A stretch of DNA of 64,000 nucleotides from Oscillospiraceae bacterium (GTDB taxonomy: Bacteria > Bacillota > Clostridia > UMGS1810): contig SVJU01000002.1 of assembly GCA_015068825.1 (NCBI GenBank), forward strand, positions 1-64,000, in the 5' to 3' direction. The translations under genes and the position numbers were made by a program. Shown here one piece after another: positions 125-10,862 of the stretch (the stretch's first letter is position 1; the number at the start of each line of letters is the position of its first letter). Under the pieces are notes generated by a model. That model was not told the origin of the DNA. It made no database searches and saw only the letters and a list, made by a program, of their open reading frames with translations.

Positions 125-1045
125 TTAGTTTATATAATCAGTTGAGTTTCGGTATTTACTTGGCGATGCGCCTGTGATTTTTTTAAATGTTTTTATAAAA
201 TGCGGTATATCCACAAAACCTACTTTAACGGCAATATCTTTTACAGGAACACTGCTCGTTCTTAAAAGCTCCATTGCCATATTTATGCGGTAATTTATAA
301 GAAACGAATGAAGCGAAAAGCCTGAATTCTTTTTAAAAACTCTGTTTATATAAACAGGGTTCATAAAAAATTTTTCGCCTAAAATTTCGTATGTTATTTC
401 TTTATCGTAATTATTTTGTATGTACTGTATTATGTTTCGGGTGAGGGTCATATTTGCGTTGCCGCAATCTTCTTTATTAAAGCTTAATTCACGCACCATA
501 CTTATAATTACCGATTTTAAAACAGTTGACAAAAGTATATCCAGATAGCTTTTATCCGCAACATTAAATTCAGTTGTAAGAAGTCTTAAACGGCTCTCGG
601 TAGAATTTGAATTATACAAAACTATGGGAGAATTTAAAACTGTTGCATCCTGTATATCAACATTTTCAAGAACATCTTCTTTTGAAAATTTGTTTGAATG
701 AACAGGGTGGAATGGTTTTTTTATATGCGAAAATTTTTGGGTGTAATCAAAGTTTATTGTAATATATTCTATCGTACCATCATCACTTGGTTGCCATATA
801 TATTTTGTTCCCGCCTTAAACAGAATGGAGCAGCCTGAACAAAGCTTATAGCTTTTATTATGAATTATCATATTTCCGTTTCCTGAAATAATATGAAAAA
901 GACGGCAGTCAGGACTTTGAAGTTCAAAAAAAACATCGTTTTTTGTACTGCTGCTGATTGTAGATATAATTGCCTGTCTTACAAAGGGTTTAACATCTTC
1001 TAAAAGCACTTCTTCCGCCTCCAAACACATATCAATTTTGCACAT
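125..1045 (-). CDS. AraC-family transcriptional regulator with N-terminal cupin-type sensor
   Basis: This 306-residue protein has the usual AraC layout. The first ~150 residues form a cupin-like ligand domain (LFHIISGNGNMIIHNKSYKL, then a glycine and proline turn pattern). The last ~100 residues carry two helix-turn-helix motifs ending in PVKDIAVKVGFVDIPHFIKTFKK and ASPSKYR, typical of HTH_18. It is transcribed away from the glycyl-radical operon, the classic position of a local activator. The 210-base gap contains a 19-bp palindrome and a 22-bp-phased direct repeat at the operon promoter. The likely inducer is the sugar or metabolite handled by the adjacent enzymes; this is inferred. A weak GGATG sits ten bases before the ATG; a second ATG five codons in is possible. 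Confidence 0.9.
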   Translation of the reverse strand: MCKIDMCLEAEEVLLEDVKPFVRQAIISTISSSTKNDVFFELQSPDCRLFHIISGNGNMIIHNKSYKLCSGCSILFKAGTKYIWQPSDDGTIEYITINFDYTQKFSHIKKPFHPVHSNKFSKEDVLENVDIQDATVLNSPIVLYNSNSTESRLRLLTTEFNVADKSYLDILLSTVLKSVIISMVRELSFNKEDCGNANMTLTRNIIQYIQNNYDKEITYEILGEKFFMNPVYINRVFKKNSGFSLHSFLINYRINMAMELLRTSSVPVKDIAVKVGFVDIPHFIKTFKKITGASPSKYRNSTDYIN

Positions 1046-1255: not shown

Positions 1256-2155
1256 ATGAAAGCATTAATAACAGATATACAGCGTTTTTCATTAACTGAT
1301 GGCGACGGCATTCGCACAACCGTATTTTTTAAAGGTTGCAATATGCATTGCACATGGTGTCACAACCCCGAAACAATTTCACCAAAAAGCCAGCTTATGT
1401 TTTATGAAACAAAATGTATAGGCTGCAGAAAATGTTTTGAGGTTTGCCCAAACGGTGCTCATAAAGTTAAAGACGGAAAGCACATAATAGACAGAAATCT
1501 TTGCACAAACTGCAAAAAATGTGCCGAAGAGTGCTATGCTGACGCCCTTGTAATGTGCGGCAAAGAAATGAGCATTGATGATATAATGTTTGAAGTTATA
1601 CAGGATAAAGCTTATTACAACACATCAAATGGCGGCGTAACTTTATCAGGCGGTGAGGTTTTATGCCATGTGGATTTTGCATCAGAGCTTGCAGACGCAT
1701 GCCATAAAGAAAACATTAATGTTGCTGTTGAAACCAATCTTTGCTTTGATTTTGAATATGCACTCCCACTTTTGAAAAAAGTTGACTTAATAATGTGCGA
1801 CTTAAAAATATTTGACGACAAAGAACATTTAAAACACACAGGCGTATCAAATAAAAAAATTATTGAAAATATTAAAAAATTAGATGATTTAAATATTCCG
1901 TTTATTGTAAGAACTCCGCTTATTCCGCTTGTTACCGATTCTTGTCAAAACATTAAAGCAATAGCTTTGTATATTAAAGATTTAAAAAATTTAAAACGAT
2001 ATGAACTGCTTAACTTTAACCCATTAGGCGAAAGCAAGTACAAAGGTCTTGACCTTGATAATACATTCAAAAATGCAAGACCACTTAAAAACGATAAGCT
2101 TGATACAATCCATAGCCTGCTTAAAGAGACCGGCGTTGAATACAAAATAGTTTAA
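1256..2155 (+). CDS. Glycyl-radical enzyme activating protein (radical SAM)
   Basis: This 299-residue protein is a pyruvate formate-lyase-activase-type radical SAM enzyme. It uses S-adenosylmethionine and a [4Fe-4S] cluster to place a radical on the glycine of its partner enzyme. The SAM motif CNMHCTWC is at residues 28-35. It is followed by a ferredoxin-like insert with two CxxCxxCxxxC sets (Cys54-57-60-64 and Cys83-86-89-93), as in activases of the non-PFL glycyl-radical enzymes (CutD, HpdA, glycerol dehydratase activase). SGGEVL near residue 130 is the usual activase glycine-rich turn. The partner starts 14 bases downstream behind a strong AAAGGAGG, so the two are translated from one message. 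Here the activase precedes the enzyme. Confidence 0.95.
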   Translation: MKALITDIQRFSLTDGDGIRTTVFFKGCNMHCTWCHNPETISPKSQLMFYETKCIGCRKCFEVCPNGAHKVKDGKHIIDRNLCTNCKKCAEECYADALVMCGKEMSIDDIMFEVIQDKAYYNTSNGGVTLSGGEVLCHVDFASELADACHKENINVAVETNLCFDFEYALPLLKKVDLIMCDLKIFDDKEHLKHTGVSNKKIIENIKKLDDLNIPFIVRTPLIPLVTDSCQNIKAIALYIKDLKNLKRYELLNFNPLGESKYKGLDLDNTFKNARPLKNDKLDTIHSLLKETGVEYKIV

Positions 2156-2169
2156 AGGAGGAAGCAATT

Positions 2170-4380
2170 TTGAGTGAAATAAAATTTATAAATAAATTCC
2201 CTTCAAACGAAGAATTTACATTTGACAAAAGAATAAAGCTTCTTCGCGAAAGAAAAGTAAGCCAAACAGAAGAAAAAGCCAGAAACGGCGGTGCAAACGA
2301 AGACGATTACGGTCTTATTGTTCAGGATGAATTTAATTACAAGCTAAAACCTAATCACGAAAACGGTTCTATTTACGGTTACAAGGCGTGGACAGAAAAT
2401 TACTGCGCAATTCTTGACTCTCATCCGCTTTACTGCGACCCATTAGATGCTTTTGTAGGCAAAGGCTTTTTGTTTCTTGAAAGACTTCGTCCGGTGGACA
2501 AAAAATGGAATCCCGATTATCCGTTTGACGATTTACAAAAGCTTTTTGATAAATATAATGTTATTTCAGGTATTGACAACTGCCATCACTTTACTCCCGA
2601 TTTACAGATTGGGTTTGATCTTGGCTGGGGAGGAATTTTAAAAAAGCTTAAAGAACAAAAAGAGCTTCACGATGAAACACACTTTGAATTTTACGACAGC
2701 GAAATTAAAGTAGTTGAAACAATTATACGCTTTCTTACAAGAATGGCAGACGAAATAAAAGACCTTTCCGAAAAGGAAAAAAATCCATATCTTAAAAAGA
2801 ATCTTGAAGAAATGTCTGCGATGAACAAAAAAATCGCTTCAAATCCACCCGAAACATTTAAAGAAGCAATTCAGTGGATGTGCTGGTTCAGTATGTTATC
2901 CCGTACATACAACAGAGGAAGTGCAGGCGGTCAGCTTGACGAAATGTTAAGACCTTACTATGAAAAAGACATCAAGGCAAACATTTTAACAGACGACGAA
3001 GCTGTGTTTTATCTTGCATGTCTGTTTTTACAGGACAGCAGATATTTTCAGTTGGGCGGTCCTGACGCAAATGGAAACGATATGACTTCAAAGGCATCAT
3101 ATCTTTGTCTTGATGCGGCAGACAAAATCAACATTGCCTGTAACTTAACCATTCGTGTTCACGATAAATTAGACGAAAAATTCTTTAAAAAATCGGTTGC
3201 ATATCTTTTCAAAAATAAGCAGGGATGGCCAAGATATTCTTCGGATACTGCCCTTGCAGAAGGGTTTATGAAATGTGGATATCCATTAGAGCTTGCAAGA
3301 AAAAGAGTTGCGGCAGGATGCCACTGGATGTGTATTCCCGGTATGGAATATACCATGAACGATACTGTAAAAATCAATCTTGCAAAGGTTTTTGAAGTTG
3401 CATATTACGAAATGATGGAAGGCAGCGAAAAAAGCATCGATAAGCTTTGGAAACTTTATAAACATCATCTTAAAAAAGCAGTTGATGCAACAGGCGATGG
3501 TATTATGCATCATCTTAAATACCAGTCAAAATCGCAACCCGAGCTTATTCTGAATTTGTTCCAGCATGGACTTATTGAAAAAGGTGTAAATATAACAGAT
3601 GGCGGCGCAAATTATTACAATATGTGCGTTGACGGCAGTGGTATTGCAGTTGTAGCCGACAGCTTTGCCGCTTGCGAGCAGCGTGTTGAAAGAGAACAAA
3701 AAATCACCTTCGATACACTCACAAAACATCTTAAAAGCAATTTTGAAGGCGAAGATGGCGAATACATAAGACAAATGCTTATAAATAGCGAGCGTTATTG
3801 TGGCGGAAACTTACTTGGTGATGAATGGGCAAAGAAAATAAGCAATCTTTATACCGAGCTTGTTCGTGATTTAAACCTTCAGCATCCCGGAATTAACTTT
3901 ATTCCCGGATTTTTCTCATGGTCAAACACACTTGGTCTTGGAAAAACCGTTTCTGCTACTCCAAACGGACGAAAAGCTTATGAAGCTATCAACCACGGAG
4001 CAAATCCAAATGGCGGATTCAGAAAAGACGGTGCGGTTTCATCAATGTGTAACTCCATTGGCTTAATTCAGCCAGGATACGGAAACTGTGCACCTGTTCA
4101 GCTTGAATTTGACCCGGGCATTGTTAATGATGAAGAAGGCATTGACAAAATGGCGGCAATGATTAAAACAATTATGAACACAGGAAATACTCTGCTTAAC
4201 ATAAACATTATAGATGCCAAAAAGATTTTAGAAGCACATAAAGACCCGTTTAAATATCCCGACCTTGTTGTAAGGGTAACAGGCTTTACTGCATTTTTTG
4301 CAATGCTTTCGCCTGAATTCAGGCAACTTGTTGTTGACCGTGTAGTATCGGTAAACCCCGTTATATCAGATAATATATAA
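2170..4380 (+). CDS. Glycyl-radical enzyme (PFL/glycerol-dehydratase superfamily), substrate unknown
   Basis: This 736-residue protein starts with TTG behind AAAGGAGG. The C-terminal radical loop is VRVTGFTAFFAML with the radical glycine at residue 705, about 31 from the end. The active-site cysteine is Cys384 in AAGCHWMCIPG. In the known GRE dehydratases and lyases (glycerol and propanediol dehydratase, CutC, HypD, isethionate lyase) and in HpdB, the cysteine is followed two residues later by a catalytic Glu (GCxE). Here that position is Trp386, and a second Cys lies at 388. It also lacks the CC pair of true pyruvate formate-lyase. At 736 residues it is shorter than most relatives (about 780-850). 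The operon context (cupin, aldose-isomerase-like, TIM-barrel isomerase, sugar dehydrogenases) points to a sugar, polyol or sugar-acid substrate. The specific reaction is not predicted. Confidence 0.93.
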   Translation: MSEIKFINKFPSNEEFTFDKRIKLLRERKVSQTEEKARNGGANEDDYGLIVQDEFNYKLKPNHENGSIYGYKAWTENYCAILDSHPLYCDPLDAFVGKGFLFLERLRPVDKKWNPDYPFDDLQKLFDKYNVISGIDNCHHFTPDLQIGFDLGWGGILKKLKEQKELHDETHFEFYDSEIKVVETIIRFLTRMADEIKDLSEKEKNPYLKKNLEEMSAMNKKIASNPPETFKEAIQWMCWFSMLSRTYNRGSAGGQLDEMLRPYYEKDIKANILTDDEAVFYLACLFLQDSRYFQLGGPDANGNDMTSKASYLCLDAADKINIACNLTIRVHDKLDEKFFKKSVAYLFKNKQGWPRYSSDTALAEGFMKCGYPLELARKRVAAGCHWMCIPGMEYTMNDTVKINLAKVFEVAYYEMMEGSEKSIDKLWKLYKHHLKKAVDATGDGIMHHLKYQSKSQPELILNLFQHGLIEKGVNITDGGANYYNMCVDGSGIAVVADSFAACEQRVEREQKITFDTLTKHLKSNFEGEDGEYIRQMLINSERYCGGNLLGDEWAKKISNLYTELVRDLNLQHPGINFIPGFFSWSNTLGLGKTVSATPNGRKAYEAINHGANPNGGFRKDGAVSSMCNSIGLIQPGYGNCAPVQLEFDPGIVNDEEGIDKMAAMIKTIMNTGNTLLNINIIDAKKILEAHKDPFKYPDLVVRVTGFTAFFAMLSPEFRQLVVDRVVSVNPVISDNI

Positions 4381-4401: not shown

Positions 4402-5178
4402 ATGAATGTTGTAATGGAAAAAGTTGATACCAGCGTAAAAGGAAATCGCTCTGTTGAACTATGCAAAGGCGAAATTTTAGGTGCACATCCTGTTCACCAT
4501 ACAATCGAAAAAGGAAGCGTTTTGGAATTTAGCGAAAACTGTGGATATTACCACATAATAATACTTATTGAAGGTACAGCAGTTTTTAGCACAGATAACA
4601 AAGAATATACTTTCGACGGCAGAACAACTTTTGTTCCCGCACCTGACAAAAAACTTACAGTTTGTGCAAAAGAAGATGTGCAGATTCTTGAAATTCAATG
4701 GGATGAAGCACCTGGTGATGAAGAAGATTTAAAAGAATACAAAACCCAATTTCCTGTTGTTGTACCTTATCAGGAATCAATACAGTATATCGACCCTAAC
4801 AAGAGTGAAAAAACCATAAGCAGAATGATGATTCCGCACGAAGTACTTCCAAGATTTACAATCGGCTCTGTTGAATCTTACGGTTATGACCTTGTAAGAC
4901 CTCACGCTCATCCTATGCTTGACCAGTTCTTCTTCAGCTTCCCTGAAAACGATATGGAAGTAATTATTGATGACGAAAAAATCAATATGAAGGGCAACAT
5001 AATTATGCACATTCCGCTTGGTTCAAACCACGGTGTTGAAGTAACAGGCGACAGACACATGCACTATATGTGGATAGATTTTATGCCAGATAAAGAAGCA
5101 GGACTTAAAAGACTTAATTTCAGCCACAGACCTACAGGAACTGTAAGAGATTTTGCAAACGAGGATAAACACAGATGA
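4402..5178 (+). CDS. Two-domain cupin protein
   Basis: This 258-residue soluble protein appears to contain two cupin folds. The first spans about residues 15-95 (HTIEKGSVLEFSENCGYYHIII through the FVPAPDKKL turn). The second spans about 145-235 (RPHAHPMLDQFFF, then IPLGSNHGVEV and HMHYMWIDF). HAH, the later Asp/Glu and GSNHGVE look like metal ligands. Such proteins can be isomerases, epimerases, lyases or small-molecule sensors. Its place between a glycyl-radical enzyme and a phosphomannose-isomerase-like gene suggests a sugar isomerase or epimerase, but no reaction can be assigned. The RBS is AAGGAGG. The stop overlaps the next start (ATGA), indicating coupled translation. Confidence 0.8.
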   Translation: MNVVMEKVDTSVKGNRSVELCKGEILGAHPVHHTIEKGSVLEFSENCGYYHIIILIEGTAVFSTDNKEYTFDGRTTFVPAPDKKLTVCAKEDVQILEIQWDEAPGDEEDLKEYKTQFPVVVPYQESIQYIDPNKSEKTISRMMIPHEVLPRFTIGSVESYGYDLVRPHAHPMLDQFFFSFPENDMEVIIDDEKINMKGNIIMHIPLGSNHGVEVTGDRHMHYMWIDFMPDKEAGLKRLNFSHRPTGTVRDFANEDKHR

Positions 5179-6221
5179 GTATAAATCTTAAAAAACCTGT
5201 AAAGCTTTCAAGGGCAGGCGCATGGCGTACATACTTTGGCGGAAGCCTTATTGAAAAGCTTCACGGAAACGAAAATGCACCCGATACAAACTTTCCTGAA
5301 GAGTGGATTATGTCTACCGTTGCTGCACGAAACAGCGGCAGAGAGCATATTGTTGAAGGGTTAAGCATGGTTGAAGGCAGTGATATTTCACTTGAAAGAC
5401 TTATAAAAAATAATCCTTACGAATGTCTTGGAAAAGAATATGTAAAAAATCACGGCAAAACACCGGGTGTGCTTGTAAAGCTTATTGATTCTTCTGAAAG
5501 GCTTACCATTCAGGTGCATCTGACAAAAGAAAAAGCAAAAGAAGTTTTTGACTCGCCTTTTGGAAAAACAGAATGCTGGCATATTATAGGCGGCCGCGAA
5601 ATAAACGGCGAAAAGCCATGTATATATTTTGGCTTTAAAAAAGGCATAACAAGAGAAAAATGGAAAGAAATTTTTGATAATCAGGATATTCCAAAAATGC
5701 TTGATTGTATGCATAAATTCGAGGTAAAAGAGGGCGATACTTTTCTTATTGAAGGCGGTATTCCCCACGCCATAGGCGCAGGATGCTTTCTTGTGGAAGT
5801 TCAGGAGCCTACCGATTTTACAATAAGAACAGAAAAAACAACTCCCGGCGGGCTTTGCGTTTCTGATTTTATGTGCCATCAGGGGCTTGGTTTTGACAAA
5901 ATGTTCGACCTTTTTGACTATACGGGCTACACCAAAGAAGAAATTTTGGAAAAATGGTATATAAAACAAAAAGACGAAACCCTTATAGGATATAATCACA
6001 CAAAAATGTTTGCCCTTGATATGCTTTTTATAAACGGAGAAAAAGAAATTTGTTCAAACAATAAATTCAGCGGGATTTATGTTCTTGACGGCGAAGGCAC
6101 AATTGATGGCAAAAACGCAAAAAAAGGCGACCAGTATTTTTTAGCAGCATGTTGCGATAATTTTAAAATAAGCGGAAATATGAAAATTATAAGATTTTAC
6201 GGACCAAAGGAGGAAGTTTAA
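5175..6221 (+). CDS. Class I mannose-6-phosphate isomerase-like protein
   Basis: This 348-residue cupin-fold enzyme is of the ManA type, which interconverts mannose-6-phosphate and fructose-6-phosphate with Zn2+. The metal-binding pieces are visible: LTIQVHLTKEKA (Gln and His), GKTECWHIIGG (Glu) and IEGGIPHAIGAG (His). The N-terminal W..YFGG pattern also fits. As part of this operon it may act on an unusual phosphorylated or free aldose made by the neighbouring enzymes rather than serving mannose metabolism. Its ATG overlaps the cupin gene stop by four bases and its stop shares a base with the next ATG, so the three genes are translationally coupled. Confidence 0.88.
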   Translation: MSINLKKPVKLSRAGAWRTYFGGSLIEKLHGNENAPDTNFPEEWIMSTVAARNSGREHIVEGLSMVEGSDISLERLIKNNPYECLGKEYVKNHGKTPGVLVKLIDSSERLTIQVHLTKEKAKEVFDSPFGKTECWHIIGGREINGEKPCIYFGFKKGITREKWKEIFDNQDIPKMLDCMHKFEVKEGDTFLIEGGIPHAIGAGCFLVEVQEPTDFTIRTEKTTPGGLCVSDFMCHQGLGFDKMFDLFDYTGYTKEEILEKWYIKQKDETLIGYNHTKMFALDMLFINGEKEICSNNKFSGIYVLDGEGTIDGKNAKKGDQYFLAACCDNFKISGNMKIIRFYGPKEEV

Positions 6222-7018
6222 TGCGATACGGTTTTTGCAAGGAGTTTTCAACACCATTAAAAACAGAAGTTGATTACGACCTTATAAAAATGATAAAAGA
6301 AGCAGGCTTTGATTATGTTGAAATGAGAGCAATGCTTGTTTCATCTCTTACAGATGAAGAATTTGATAAGCTTTACAACACTCTTAAAGAATTAAACCTT
6401 GATTGTGATTGCTGCTGTGCTCTTTTTCCAAAAACAATCCGTGTTACAGGAAAAAGTGTTAATTTAAGCGAAATAGAAGCATATCTTGAAAAAACATTTG
6501 CAAGATGTAAAAAGCTTGGTGCAAAGAAAATTGTTTTCGGAAGCGCACCTGCAAGAGCGCTTGACGAAGAAACATCACAGGATGAAGGATATAAGCAGAT
6601 TGCAGATGTTATTAAAAAGACGGTTGTGCCTATGTGTGAAAAATACGATATGATGGTTGTAATGGAGCCATTAAGGAATGATGCGTGCAACTTTATAAAC
6701 ACACTTTCAGACGGTATGAGAGTTGTAAACGATGTTAAATCAGATAAAATTCAGCTTCTTGCCGACACAATCCATATGATGACAAATAACGACAACCCTG
6801 ACGATGTATTAAAATACAAAGACAGCTTAAAACACATTCACATTGCTGAGCTTCAGAGAATTATGCCTGAAGATGAATACTCTGACTTTATAAATACTGT
6901 TCTTAAAAATTTAAGACAAAACGGTTATGATGGAACAGTTTCGTTTGAGAGTAAAAACGGCAATGGCGTTGAAAGCATGAAAAAAGCACTTAATTTATTA
7001 AAAAATAATTTATATTAA
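6221..7018 (+). CDS. Sugar phosphate isomerase/epimerase-like TIM-barrel protein
   Basis: This 265-residue protein belongs to the xylose-isomerase-like (AP endonuclease family 2) TIM-barrel superfamily, which includes hydroxypyruvate isomerase, ketose 3-epimerases and inosose dehydratase. Typical landmarks are AGFDYVEMRAML near the start, KIVFGSAPARAL mid-protein, VVMEPLRN (metal-binding Glu), LLADTIHMM (Asp and His) and HIHIAELQR, ending with GTVSFESKN (Glu). The set of Glu-Asp-His-Glu ligands suggests an intact metal site. The TAATG junction with the previous stop indicates coupling. It likely isomerises or epimerises the sugar routed through the pathway. The exact substrate cannot be read from sequence. 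Confidence 0.88.
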   Translation: MRYGFCKEFSTPLKTEVDYDLIKMIKEAGFDYVEMRAMLVSSLTDEEFDKLYNTLKELNLDCDCCCALFPKTIRVTGKSVNLSEIEAYLEKTFARCKKLGAKKIVFGSAPARALDEETSQDEGYKQIADVIKKTVVPMCEKYDMMVVMEPLRNDACNFINTLSDGMRVVNDVKSDKIQLLADTIHMMTNNDNPDDVLKYKDSLKHIHIAELQRIMPEDEYSDFINTVLKNLRQNGYDGTVSFESKNGNGVESMKKALNLLKNNLY

Positions 7019-7033
7019 AAGGAGAAATTTAAA

Positions 7034-8044
7034 ATGGCTATTAAAACAGCAGTTATAGGATGCGGAAGAACCGCAAATGATTTACATGCTCCGGTTTTGG
7101 AAAAACATCCGGAATTTGAAGTAACAGCAATATGTGATGTAAACTTAGATGCTTTGGACAAATATTCAAAAAGATTTCCAAACGCGAAAAAATACACAGA
7201 TTATACTACAATGCTAAATTCAGACGAATATGATTTTGCAATTATTCTTACATACAGCTATATGCACACTGCAATTGCACTTGATTTTCTTCGTGCAGGC
7301 AAAAATGTACTTATTACAAAACCCTGGGCTATCACAACAGATGATGCTGATTCAATTATTAAAACTGCCAAAGAAAACAACTGTATTGTAATGCCTTTTA
7401 TTCCATGTCACGATGGTGCAGATGTGGTTAAACTCAAAGAAGTTATTAAAGAAGGCAAAATCGGTAAAGTTTTCAGAGTATACCGTGCACAGATGACATT
7501 TGGAAAAAGAAGTGACTGGCAGACTCTTAAAGCATATGCAGGCGGATATCTTAACAACTGGGGGCCTCACATTGTTGAACAGGCTATGTGTCTTGTTGAC
7601 GAGCCTATTAAATCTGTTTATGCACAAAAAAGACAGATTATCAACCCCGGTGATGCTGACGATATGTTCTGCTCAACCCTTATTACCGAAAGCGGTGTAA
7701 TTGTTCAGGTTGACCATAACATCATTTCTGATTATCTTCCAAACTGGGTTGTTCAGGGTGATAAAGGTACAATTTATGTAAAAGGCAACGAAATGGAAAT
7801 TCACGAAATTTCTTATCCTGAAGCAGACGATCCGACTGTATACAGAAGCGTTACCGAAACAAAGAAAACAAACATTACACTTGAAGGCAAAATTTTTGGT
7901 GACCATTATTCAATCTACTCAATGATTGCCGAAACTTTAAAAGGCAAACCTTATATCGTTTCGCTTGATTATGCAAGACATTTGACCGAAATTATGCAGT
8001 CAATTCATAAATCTGCAGATGAAAACACACTTGTAATACTTTAA
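7034..8044 (+). CDS. Gfo/Idh/MocA-family oxidoreductase (first of a tandem pair)
   Basis: This 336-residue NAD(P)-dependent sugar dehydrogenase-like protein has an N-terminal Rossmann fold (AVIGCGRTANDLHAP, then VTAICDVN). The KPWAITTDDAD segment matches the conserved EKP region of the family, with Trp in place of the common Leu or Met. The C-terminal half is the usual alpha/beta substrate-binding domain (NWGPHIVEQAMCLVDEP contains the Gly-x-His seen in the active site). It lies 15 bases after the TIM-barrel gene with an AAAAGGAG site and 12 bases before a second member of the family. Oxidation or reduction of a cyclic or linear polyol, or 3-keto sugar formation, is plausible. Pairing with a xylose-isomerase-like protein recalls inositol or glycoside-cleavage pathways. 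Confidence 0.9.
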   Translation: MAIKTAVIGCGRTANDLHAPVLEKHPEFEVTAICDVNLDALDKYSKRFPNAKKYTDYTTMLNSDEYDFAIILTYSYMHTAIALDFLRAGKNVLITKPWAITTDDADSIIKTAKENNCIVMPFIPCHDGADVVKLKEVIKEGKIGKVFRVYRAQMTFGKRSDWQTLKAYAGGYLNNWGPHIVEQAMCLVDEPIKSVYAQKRQIINPGDADDMFCSTLITESGVIVQVDHNIISDYLPNWVVQGDKGTIYVKGNEMEIHEISYPEADDPTVYRSVTETKKTNITLEGKIFGDHYSIYSMIAETLKGKPYIVSLDYARHLTEIMQSIHKSADENTLVIL

Positions 8045-8056
8045 GGAGAAGTTACA

Positions 8057-9265
8057 ATGGAAAATAAATTAACCGTTGCAATAATAGGATGCGGCAATTT
8101 TGCAAGAAACTTTGTCGACCTTTTTAAAGCACATCCGTATGTAAAAAAAGTATATGTATGTGACCTTATTGAAGAAAAAGCTACCGAATATTCAAATAAA
8201 TTTGATGTTGAAATAATAGACTCATTTGAACAGGCTTTGGAAAATAAGGACATCAACTGTATTGCCAATTTTACACAGCGTCATCTTCACGGTGATATTG
8301 TAATAAGAGCATTAAAAGCAGGAAAACATGTTTATTCTGCTGTTCCTATGGCTCCAACTGTTGAAGAATGTCAGCAGATTGTAGAACTTGTTAAACAAAC
8401 AGGTCTTACATATCTTATGGGTGAAACATGCTACTATTATCCTTGTGCTATGTATTGCAGAGAAGCTTACAAACAAGGCAAATTTGGTGATTTTACTTAT
8501 GGTGCAAGCCAGTATTATCACCATATCGACAGCATTTCTTACGGCAAAAGACCAAACGAAGGCGGTATGCCTCCGCTTCTTTATCCAACACATTCAACAG
8601 GTATGATTCTTTCCAGTGTGAATTCTTATGTAAAAAAGGTATCCTGCTTTGGTTATGTAGACAAAACCAACGACGGACGTTTTGAAGTTGGCAAAAATCA
8701 GTGGGACAATGTTTTTTCTAATCAGTATGTTATGATGCTTCTTGAAAACGGCGGTACTGCCAGAGTGACAGAAGCGCGTACATTCGGCTGGATGAAACCA
8801 AGCTCATATATTTCTGCTCTTTATGGCACAAACGGCGGATATGAGTTTTCAAATGCTCAGCATATTCTTGTTGAAAAAGACTGGGAAAGCGAAAAAGAAA
8901 AAGTTAACCTTACCGATGTGAGCGACTATGTTAACACAAAAGGCATGGTAGAAAACAAAGACAATCCTGATTTTAAAAATATGGTTGCCAACGGAAGCTG
9001 GCAGTGGGACGACTACGCACAAGTTCAGGAAGAAGAAATCAAGCGTTTGCCAAAAGAATACGAAAATATTGACAATGGTCATATGGCAACACATAAATTC
9101 CTTATTGACGATTTCTGCAAAGCGGCATATACAGGAAAAATGCCTGTTTTAAACGCATGGACAGCTGCGCGTTACACCATACCCGGTCTTGTTGCTATTG
9201 AATCTGCAAAACAGGGCGGAATTGTGCTTGATGTACCCGATTGCGGTGACGCACCAACAGAATAA
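8057..9265 (+). CDS. Gfo/Idh/MocA-family oxidoreductase (second of a tandem pair)
   Basis: This 402-residue NAD(P)-binding oxidoreductase starts with VAIIGCGNFARNFVDLF and VYVCDLIEEKA. The YSAVPMAPTVEECQQIV segment occupies the position of the family's EKP loop but reads VPM, a departure in the lysine that normally contacts cofactor and substrate. The protein is longer than its neighbour, with an extra C-terminal segment (about residues 300-345, rich in Trp and Asp). The two are divergent paralogues, not a recent duplication. RBS AAGGAGAAG. It is the last gene before a clear terminator and may catalyse a different step from the first dehydrogenase or lack classic dehydrogenase chemistry. Confidence 0.88.
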   Translation: MENKLTVAIIGCGNFARNFVDLFKAHPYVKKVYVCDLIEEKATEYSNKFDVEIIDSFEQALENKDINCIANFTQRHLHGDIVIRALKAGKHVYSAVPMAPTVEECQQIVELVKQTGLTYLMGETCYYYPCAMYCREAYKQGKFGDFTYGASQYYHHIDSISYGKRPNEGGMPPLLYPTHSTGMILSSVNSYVKKVSCFGYVDKTNDGRFEVGKNQWDNVFSNQYVMMLLENGGTARVTEARTFGWMKPSSYISALYGTNGGYEFSNAQHILVEKDWESEKEKVNLTDVSDYVNTKGMVENKDNPDFKNMVANGSWQWDDYAQVQEEEIKRLPKEYENIDNGHMATHKFLIDDFCKAAYTGKMPVLNAWTAARYTIPGLVAIESAKQGGIVLDVPDCGDAPTE

Positions 9266-9322: not shown

Positions 9323-9374
9323 TAATTTGTGTTTACAAAACAATAAACATAGATTAAAATATAAAAAGGAGCTG

Positions 9375-10862
9375 ATGAATAAAATGTTTGTAAAAGCAAC
9401 CTGTGAAGAAGTCGGAATTTCTTCAAAAAAAGTTCTTGAATATATAAAAACTCTTGAAAGCTATAATCTTAAAACACACAGCATAATTATGGCAAGAGGA
9501 AATAAAATCTTTGCCGAAACATATTATGCACCGTTTAACAAAGATTTTAAACATCGTATGTATTCTGTTTCAAAAAGCTTTGTTGCCATTGGTGTAGGAT
9601 TGGCCGAGCAGGAAGGGCTTTTATCGCTTGACGATAAATTTATGGATTATTTTCCCGAATACATAAACGAAAATGTAAATGACAGATTTTTTGAAGCTAC
9701 CATAAAAGATATGCTTTCTATGCAGACATTTATGGTTGATTACGGCATCTGGTGGGGCAAAGAAGACAGAGCCAAAGCATACTTTACAAAATCGTCAAGA
9801 CAAATTCCCGGTACTAATTTTTTCTACGACAGTTCAGGATCATTTTTACTTGGATGTCTTGTAGAAAAAGTTACAAAAAAACCGCTTTTGGAATATCTTA
9901 AAGAAAAAGTTCTTATTGATATCGGTTTTTCAAAAGATTCGTACTGTCTTATTGCACCGGGCGGTCATTCACACAGTGATTCCGGCGTAATGTGCACTTC
10001 GCGCGACCTTCTTATTTTTGCCCGTCTTTTAATGAACAAGGGTGAATATAATGGCAAGCGCTACATAAACGAAAAATTTATGACTGATGTAATTTCAAAG
10101 CAAACCGAAACAAACTGCACAGATATTATTTCGCCATACGACTCGCATGGATACGGATATTTTGTATGGAAAATGCCACGCGATGGCTTTGCACTTTTTG
10201 GCATGGCAAATCAGTATGCAATATGCGATACAAAAACCGACTTTATTTTTATTATCAATTCAGAAAATATGGATAATAACTCAACAAGCAAAACAGGCAC
10301 AACAATTATACTTCACGAGCTTTATAAAACAATAATTAATAATCTTGATTCACCACTTTCCGAAAACAAAGAAGATGCAAAAGAGCTTGAAGATTATTTA
10401 TCAACAAGAAAGCTTATATGCCTTGAAGGTGAAACCAAAAGCCCTATTTTAAACAAAATAAACGGTGTAAAATATGTTACAGAGCCAAATCCAATGGGCA
10501 TTGAATATATAAAAATTGATATAAATGACGAAAAAGGCATAATGGAATACAAAAACAAAGACGGCATAAACAAGCTCGAGTTTGGAATGGGATATAATGT
10601 TTTTTCAAAATTCCCGGGCAAAAAGAGAATGAGCATAATCGCATCGGTGTATGAAGACGGACAATACGACTGTGCCACTTCTGCAATCTGGAACGAAGAA
10701 AACAAGCTTCATATTCTTTCGCAGATAATTGATACATATATGGGTTCGTTGTTCATCGCACTTGGATTTAAAGATGACCGTGTGAGCATATCAATGCACA
10801 AACATTCCCAACGTATTCTTGATGAATATTCAGGTTATGCAATTGGAAAAAAAGAAATATAA
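9375..10862 (+). CDS. Serine hydrolase of the beta-lactamase/esterase (class C-like) family
   Basis: The reading frame opens at 9189 but the terminator at 9284-9322 lies inside that extension. The likely start is ATG 9375 (495 residues), or ATG 9384, behind AAAAGGAG. The serine beta-lactamase fold is indicated by YSVSKSFVAIGVGLAEQEG (SxxK: Ser nucleophile and Lys) and FFYDSSGSFLLGCLVEK (the Tyr of the YxN-like motif). HSHSDSGVMCTSRDLLIFARLL matches the usual C-terminal part of the catalytic domain. About 150 further residues form a beta-rich C-terminal domain. No signal peptide or membrane segment is visible, so it is probably cytoplasmic and may be an esterase or amidase removing acyl groups from the island's substrate rather than a penicillin-binding protein. 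Confidence 0.82.
   Translation: MNKMFVKATCEEVGISSKKVLEYIKTLESYNLKTHSIIMARGNKIFAETYYAPFNKDFKHRMYSVSKSFVAIGVGLAEQEGLLSLDDKFMDYFPEYINENVNDRFFEATIKDMLSMQTFMVDYGIWWGKEDRAKAYFTKSSRQIPGTNFFYDSSGSFLLGCLVEKVTKKPLLEYLKEKVLIDIGFSKDSYCLIAPGGHSHSDSGVMCTSRDLLIFARLLMNKGEYNGKRYINEKFMTDVISKQTETNCTDIISPYDSHGYGYFVWKMPRDGFALFGMANQYAICDTKTDFIFIINSENMDNNSTSKTGTTIILHELYKTIINNLDSPLSENKEDAKELEDYLSTRKLICLEGETKSPILNKINGVKYVTEPNPMGIEYIKIDINDEKGIMEYKNKDGINKLEFGMGYNVFSKFPGKKRMSIIASVYEDGQYDCATSAIWNEENKLHILSQIIDTYMGSLFIALGFKDDRVSISMHKHSQRILDEYSGYAIGKKEI

Follow-up and report, generated by a model that had tools for sequence, protein, structure and literature searches.

A glycyl radical enzyme clade with tryptophan in place of the eliminase glutamate, encoded beside putative sugar-converting genes

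A gene in a 64,000-nucleotide stretch of Oscillospiraceae DNA (hereafter the window, meaning the whole stretch that was analyzed) encodes a glycyl radical enzyme (GRE), a kind of enzyme sensitive to oxygen, in which tryptophan occupies the place of the glutamate of the eliminase CXE motif. Judged from alignment and tree, this Trp, two residues after the catalytic Cys (Cys+2), is a constant feature of a distinct GRE clade with one origin, here called CxW. We tentatively read the window GRE as a sugar-catabolic member of this uncharacterized clade, which would act on a sugar or sugar acid with Asp488 and Asp398 doing the acid-base work, and we hold this reading with somewhat less than even confidence.

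The gene, its motif and the extent of the CxW clade

The GRE gene starts with TTG, where its orthologues have ATG at the same place, and its product matched the PFL-like and Gly_radical families of Pfam. The gene and its motif residues are as follows.

2170..4380, + strand: GRE of the CxW clade, 736 aa (PF02901 5e-98, PF01228 1e-14)
3319..3327, + strand: Cys384-His385-Trp386, the predicted thiyl-radical Cys, then His, then Trp replacing the CXE Glu
3331..3333, + strand: Cys388 (Cys+4), which is Cys, Ser or Ala across the clade and not conserved
3346..3348, + strand: Glu393 (Cys+9), clade-invariant and frequent among CXE enzymes too
4282..4284, + strand: Gly705, the predicted glycyl radical residue, in RVTGF

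An earlier note on this DNA had described a Cys followed by His and Trp, with a second Cys and a Glu close behind and with the radical loop intact, and all of these residues are present: codon 384 (3319-3321, within VAAGCHWMCIPGMEYTMND) encodes the Cys of GCHWMC, and Gly705 is carried by the loop VVRVTGFTAFF. The note was also right that GCHWMC holds no adjacent Cys pair of the pyruvate formate-lyase (PFL) kind. The AF2 model (pLDDT 86 overall, with a weak Cys loop at residues 381-400, pLDDT 67-69) had the 10-stranded barrel fold, and its top Foldseek matches were all GREs, at TM about 0.8. With this fold, a central-loop Cys (59/59 clade members), an RVxG[FWY] loop and an adjoining radical-SAM activase, the enzyme can be placed in the GRE superfamily, the radical itself being predicted.

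We then looked at how far the motif extends. A scan of a public genome collection led to 35 loci, and at 34 of the 35 fetched the GRE was an orthologue (60-91% identity) with the motif GCHWM[CS]xPG. These orthologues came from Clostridia, Spirochaetes, Kiritimatiellae, Verrucomicrobia and Lentisphaeria-type MAGs, and many clade members outside Clostridia are from gut and rumen. Since the 34 orthologues share it, the GCHW motif is not a sequencing accident. One orthologue (L045:2846-5114) lay in two frames, covering residues 4-412 and 463-729, as a result of a frameshift or assembly error.

Beyond the orthologues, a profile search of 391 sampled genomes of the host's class returned a match at E<=1e-80 in 30 of them, and at least five CxW subfamilies were distinguished (GCHWM, GCNWM, GCHWC, GCNWT and GCQW). 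When 59 CxW sequences were aligned jointly with 78 other GREs, the catalytic Cys was present and Cys+2 was Trp in every CxW sequence, while in the other GREs Cys+2 was Glu in 64, Ser in 7, Gly in 3, Tyr in 2, Val in 1 and Asp in 1, and Trp in none. The absence of the eliminase Glu, on which the note had centered, therefore holds for the clade as a whole. A single branch (SH-aLRT 99) set the CxW rows apart from all others in a tree of 82 rows, which was built by a "quick" method with the motif columns removed and had some long branches outside the CxW clade. The clade also differs at other residues that are nearly universal in GREs (PflD to window: Glu261 to Tyr247, Asn680 to Gln644, Gln713 to Asn677, Asp644 to His609 and Gln754 to Arg718).

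GREs lacking Glu at Cys+2 are as such already known, PFL having Ser there, and further types with Ser, Gly, Tyr, Val or Asp are found in the survey, including L131, L134, L143, L144, L158 and L163 (GCVY in two, GCLG, GCVS, GCVD and GCVV). The host genome itself encodes a GCNWM paralogue on another contig (L077:8800-11010, G000:C2) that is 46% identical to the window GRE and lies in an operon of the order Gfo-TIM-GRE-Gfo-Gfo, behind which come a metallophosphoesterase-like gene and one of family GH65. More divergent GREs of the same genome were located at L003:111-2396 (G000:C35), L004:1495-3657 (G000:C45) and L005:64-2112 (G000:C11), with the motifs GCWGMQC (Glu-less at Cys+2), GCWEVQ and ACWEF. 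When the first two, L003 and L004, were scanned against NCBIfam, no cut-off was reached.

Relation to known enzymes and active-site columns

The window GRE missed every NCBIfam equivalog (PRK09983, HypD, CutC, HpsG, IAD, HPAD and PFL), all scores being far under cut-off. The top model was TIGR01774 (255 bits vs. a cut-off of 678) and the best equivalog was PRK09983 (227 of 1109 bits), with HypD at 208 of 1100, CutC at 191 of 1050, IAD at 116 of 1100 and HPAD at 110 of 1150. With Trp386 at Cys+2 and equivalog scores this low, the enzyme falls outside the CXE eliminase class (GD, PD, CutC, HypD and IslA). It likewise falls outside the PflD/YbiW anhydroalditol-phosphate lyases (CXE Glu missing, PRK09983 score too low), the arylacetate decarboxylases HPAD and IAD (CXE Glu absent, low model scores), PFL (no adjacent Cys pair, Cys388 not conserved) and the X-succinate synthases (GCHW loop, no small-subunit gene seen within the operon).

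To compare pockets, we anchored an alignment on published residues of HypD, CutC, HPAD, B12-independent glycerol/propanediol dehydratase (GD/PD) and PFL by their distance from the catalytic Cys. The HypD, CutC and HPAD anchor sequences were confirmed by their models (NF043068, 1364.6 over 1100; TIGR04394, 1652 over 1050; NF033715, 1615 over 1150), and those for PFL and GD/PD-like enzymes were assigned by motif. Four anchors (GD His164 and His281, PFL Arg176 and Trp333) missed their expected columns by a few residues in the relatives that served for the alignment; in a profile alignment to GD itself, His164 falls on His140. The columns of interest were as follows.

2587..2589, + strand: His140, column of GD His164, HypD His160, HPAD Arg223 and CutC Asp216; 59/59 CxW
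2914..2916, + strand: Arg249, column of HypD Asp278 and HPAD Ser344; invariant in the GCHWM and GCNWM subfamilies
3361..3363, + strand: Asp398 (Cys+14), column of GD Asp447; 59/59 CxW
3370..3372, + strand: Lys401, column of HypD Tyr450, CutC Tyr506 and PFL Arg435; Lys or Arg in 57/59
3631..3633, + strand: Asp488, column of HPAD Glu637; Asp in 57/59, Asn in two GCQW members
3913..3921, + strand: Phe582-Ser-Trp584, columns of GD Tyr640 (Phe582) and HypD Thr645 (Trp584)

In the same alignment, Trp386 occupies the column of the CXE Glu, Ser290 that of HypD Phe340, GD Tyr339, HPAD Phe405 and CutC Phe395, and Asn397/Asp398 stand opposite CutC Thr502 and GD Asp447. The CXE Glu is described as conserved and as the general base in most eliminases (PMC7077986, PMC8473560). 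HypD Tyr450 is a predicted substrate-binding residue. In HPAD, a further carboxylate, Glu637, is described as the base that deprotonates the phenol (PMC9248008), and our verified HPAD has Glu at Cys+134, the same spacing as Cys503/Glu637 of the Clostridium scatologenes enzyme. Because His514 (Cys+14) and Leu616 of IAD occupy the same pocket region (PMC9248008), Asp398 and Asp488 are likely pocket neighbors.

Each of the known enzymes shares part of this arrangement. The dehydratase GD keeps the pair His164/Asp447 that corresponds to His140/Asp398, but differs at Glu435 (Trp386 in the window), Tyr640 (Phe582) and the Tyr339 column (Ser290). A His in the His140 column together with Asp at Cys+14 occurred in 6/78 of the other GREs, all of them PflD/GD-like by motif and including Escherichia coli PflD. 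The 4-hydroxyphenylacetate decarboxylase HpdB has a carboxylate in the Asp488 column, although it retains the CXE Glu, has Arg in the His140 column, is about 900 aa long and has a small subunit. The trans-4-hydroxy-L-proline dehydratase HypD shares the His140-column His and the Glu at Cys+9, whereas its CXE Glu, catalytic Asp278, Tyr450 and Phe340 are replaced by Trp386, Arg249, Lys401 and Ser290. PFL has a basic residue (Arg435) in the Lys401 column and no Glu at Cys+2, but its adjacent Cys pair is absent from the window GRE. Taken together, the columns show what appears to be a rebuilt CxW pocket, with the diol-binding pair of GD kept as His140/Asp398, Trp386 in place of Glu, a carboxylate at Asp488 and cationic Lys401 and Arg249; how Asp488, Trp386 and Lys401 are positioned is deduced from aligning sequences that are about 20-25% identical. 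Both GCQW sequences have Asn at 488 and Ala or Trp at 401, so that Asp488 and Lys401 are not universal to CxW and the GCQW subfamily may differ.

The nearest solved proteins were GD and PflD (8id0, 8yjo), PflD being the best match both by profile (8yjo, 1.3e-76) and by Foldseek (8id0, TM 0.81, with bound 1,5-anhydromannitol-6-phosphate). PflD and YbiW of E. coli are lyases of anhydroalditol 6-phosphates (PMC12441222) and convert 1,5-anhydro-mannitol or -glucitol 6-phosphate to 1-deoxyfructose 6-phosphate, and the window GRE resembles them in its fold, in the His and Asp of the polyol pocket (PflD His156 and Asp433, matching His140 and Asp398) and in an IPG loop after the Cys. A PflD/YbiW-like enzyme that opens the ring of an anhydro-sugar, acting on a non-PTS substrate, would fit these matches and the Gfo/Idh/MocA enzymes of the operon, whose family includes 1,5-anhydrofructose reductase (weak matches to 2glx and 4koa). 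However, identity to PflD/YbiW is about 20-25%, the CXE Glu that both retain is Trp in the window, Gln523 is replaced by Asp488, the partner genes differ, with no PTS genes seen beside the GRE or among the scanned window genes, and the tree did not place the CxW clade with PflD. We therefore regard such a lyase as unlikely.

Operon and genomic context

The GRE gene lies in an operon with the order activase-GRE-bicupin-ManA-like-TIM-Gfo-Gfo, in which gaps range from -4 to +21 bases and the activase is directly upstream of the GRE (14-base gap).

125..1045, - strand: AraC-type regulator, divergent from the operon (PF12833 1.7e-20); relatives in 7/17 loci
1256..2155, + strand: radical-SAM activase with two ferredoxin-type clusters (TIGR02494 328.6 bits, cut-off 174)
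4402..5178, + strand: 258-aa bicupin protein carrying the conserved metal-type motif HxHPMLDQ...H (AF2 pLDDT 90.5, generic bicupin matches)
5175..6221, + strand: class I mannose-6-phosphate-isomerase-like (ManA-like) protein (TIGR00218 78 bits, under the cut-off of 116; 1qwr 2.5e-12)
6221..7018, + strand: xylose-isomerase-like TIM barrel of sugar epimerase/isomerase type (PF01261 4.9e-29; matches to 2zvr and to 6wn6, a 3-keto-D-glucoside 4-epimerase)
7034..8044, + strand: Gfo/Idh/MocA oxidoreductase 1 (PF01408; PDB matches including DgpA-type and related dehydrogenases)
8057..9265, + strand: Gfo/Idh/MocA oxidoreductase 2 (PF01408; top PDB match DgpA1, 7e-20)

Further along the window, a beta-lactamase-fold serine hydrolase (9339-10862, + strand) resembles 3-succinylated cholic acid synthase, at 170 bits against a cut-off of 800.

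Among 17 loci with enough flank, the activase was present at 17, the bicupin at 17, the ManA-like gene at 14 and any TIM or Gfo gene at 15, and the bicupin is thus an obligate neighbor of the GRE (17/17). We rejected KduI or IolB, either of which would have pointed to uronates, as the identity of the bicupin: the Foldseek matches were generic bicupins, an IolB-like protein ranking 35th, and a profile search of the PDB with the bicupin gave nothing useful. Other loci add a TIM-Gfo fusion, FAD_oxidored, and glycoside hydrolases of families GH106, GH65 and GH38, and at one GCNWM locus (L080) the genes for Gfo, a PfkB-type kinase and a class II aldolase stand in a row. At two Sphaerochaeta-type loci (L024, L025), TRAP transporter genes stand beside orthologues of the window TIM and Gfo1 genes, and the DctP of L024 is nearest to 4n8y (galacturonate-bound) and 4mhf (glucuronate/galacturonate-binding). 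Other loci have SSS, MFS or CUT1-type ABC permeases instead of TRAP, so that an acid substrate is not certain.

Several other genes were seen at these loci. A nickel-dependent lactate-racemase-like (LarA) gene (L025:1-870) lies near the TRAP-TIM-Gfo genes; URO-D/MtaA-like methyltransferase genes adjoin GCHWC members (L087:7021-8151; L091:5158-6279), and a corrinoid-protein-like gene is near a GCNWT locus (L082:1382-2017). A right-handed beta-helix protein fused to an L-rhamnose mutarotase domain (L089:10287-12356) adjoins a GCQW member. Our search of GRE literature outside subscription journals found no report linking GREs with MocA-type genes.

This context raises the possibility that a general base is not needed at all, because a Gfo dehydrogenase or an FAD enzyme would first form a keto-sugar, beside whose carbonyl the GRE would carry out beta-elimination or C-C cleavage. 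TIM-barrel or Gfo/Idh/MocA genes at 15/17 loci, FAD_oxidored at others and PDB relatives of the operon proteins that are keto-sugar enzymes, such as DgpA and 3-keto-D-glucoside 4-epimerase, are consistent with this order of events. However, the conservation of Asp488, Asp398 and His140 suggests that proton transfer is still required, and we consider a base-free route quite unlikely.

Proton transfer and possible function

Could the missing base be supplied from within the Cys loop? Glu393, which the earlier note had mentioned, might fold into the place of the CXE Glu, and the enzyme would then be a normal eliminase whose Cys loop has been rewired. Glu393 is indeed invariant in the clade (59/59) but not specific to it, since 23/64 CXE-Glu enzymes, HypD among them, have Glu at Cys+9 as well, and the accounts of HypD and IslA that we consulted do not name that Glu among the active-site residues. 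The case for Glu393 as a specific stand-in is weakened accordingly, and we judge it very unlikely. The note's second Cys fared worse. A PFL-like two-cysteine relay of Cys384 and Cys388 could appeal to the nearness of Cys388 to the thiyl Cys and to a GANP segment that resembles PFL; yet Cys388 is not adjacent to Cys384, and its column holds 42 Cys, 9 Ser and 8 Ala among the 59 CxW sequences (17/59 Ser or Ala), so that we reject it as a second catalytic Cys and find PFL-type chemistry scarcely credible. Equally hard to credit is an inactive or moonlighting GRE fold, which would fit the loss of the usual base but not the fact that the catalytic Cys, the glycyl loop and the partner activase are conserved across several phyla.

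We return to the sugar-catabolic reading with acid-base work by Asp488 and Asp398. Because His140/Asp398 are kept, the Cys-loop base is lost, and columns 488 and 401 carry a carboxylate and a cation, we deduce that the substrate is of the polyol type and, in the GCHWM subfamily, probably carries an acidic group. Since the hydroxyl-binding pair of GD is kept and Asp488 shares its column with the HPAD base, the enzyme may still perform an elimination in which the base has been relocated. In this scheme, the activase would generate the Gly705 radical, Cys384 would become a thiyl radical and abstract hydrogen from a carbinol carbon of the sugar or sugar acid, and the substrate would be held by His140 and Asp398 at its hydroxyls and, where a carboxylate is present, by Lys401 and Arg249. 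Across the pocket from the Cys loop, Asp488 together with Asp398 would remove and return protons in its stead, and Trp386 of that loop would pack against the substrate. The substrate radical would then rearrange, most simply to a deoxy-keto sugar through elimination or opening of the ring, and the isomerases and dehydrogenases of the operon would hand the product on.

The earlier suggestion of different proton chemistry is well supported as an inference, the general-base Glu being replaced and other pocket columns altered too, and the window GRE possibly represents a new reaction class. A bolder proposal is that CxW forms a functional GRE class of its own, a sugar or sugar-acid radical lyase or isomerase in which the general base no longer sits on the Cys loop but is Asp488 on the barrel, and whose reaction is not yet described; we think this possible, though doubtful.

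A CXE Glu is regarded as the signature of eliminase GREs and guides function prediction, and here is a widespread clade that does without it, combining its loss with a consistent set of other changes. Finding out which reaction CxW enzymes catalyze would extend anaerobic sugar breakdown by a radical step and would probe how far GRE acid-base chemistry can shift around the barrel. If the base has indeed moved to Asp488, anaerobes would gain a carbohydrate-catabolic reaction not yet described.
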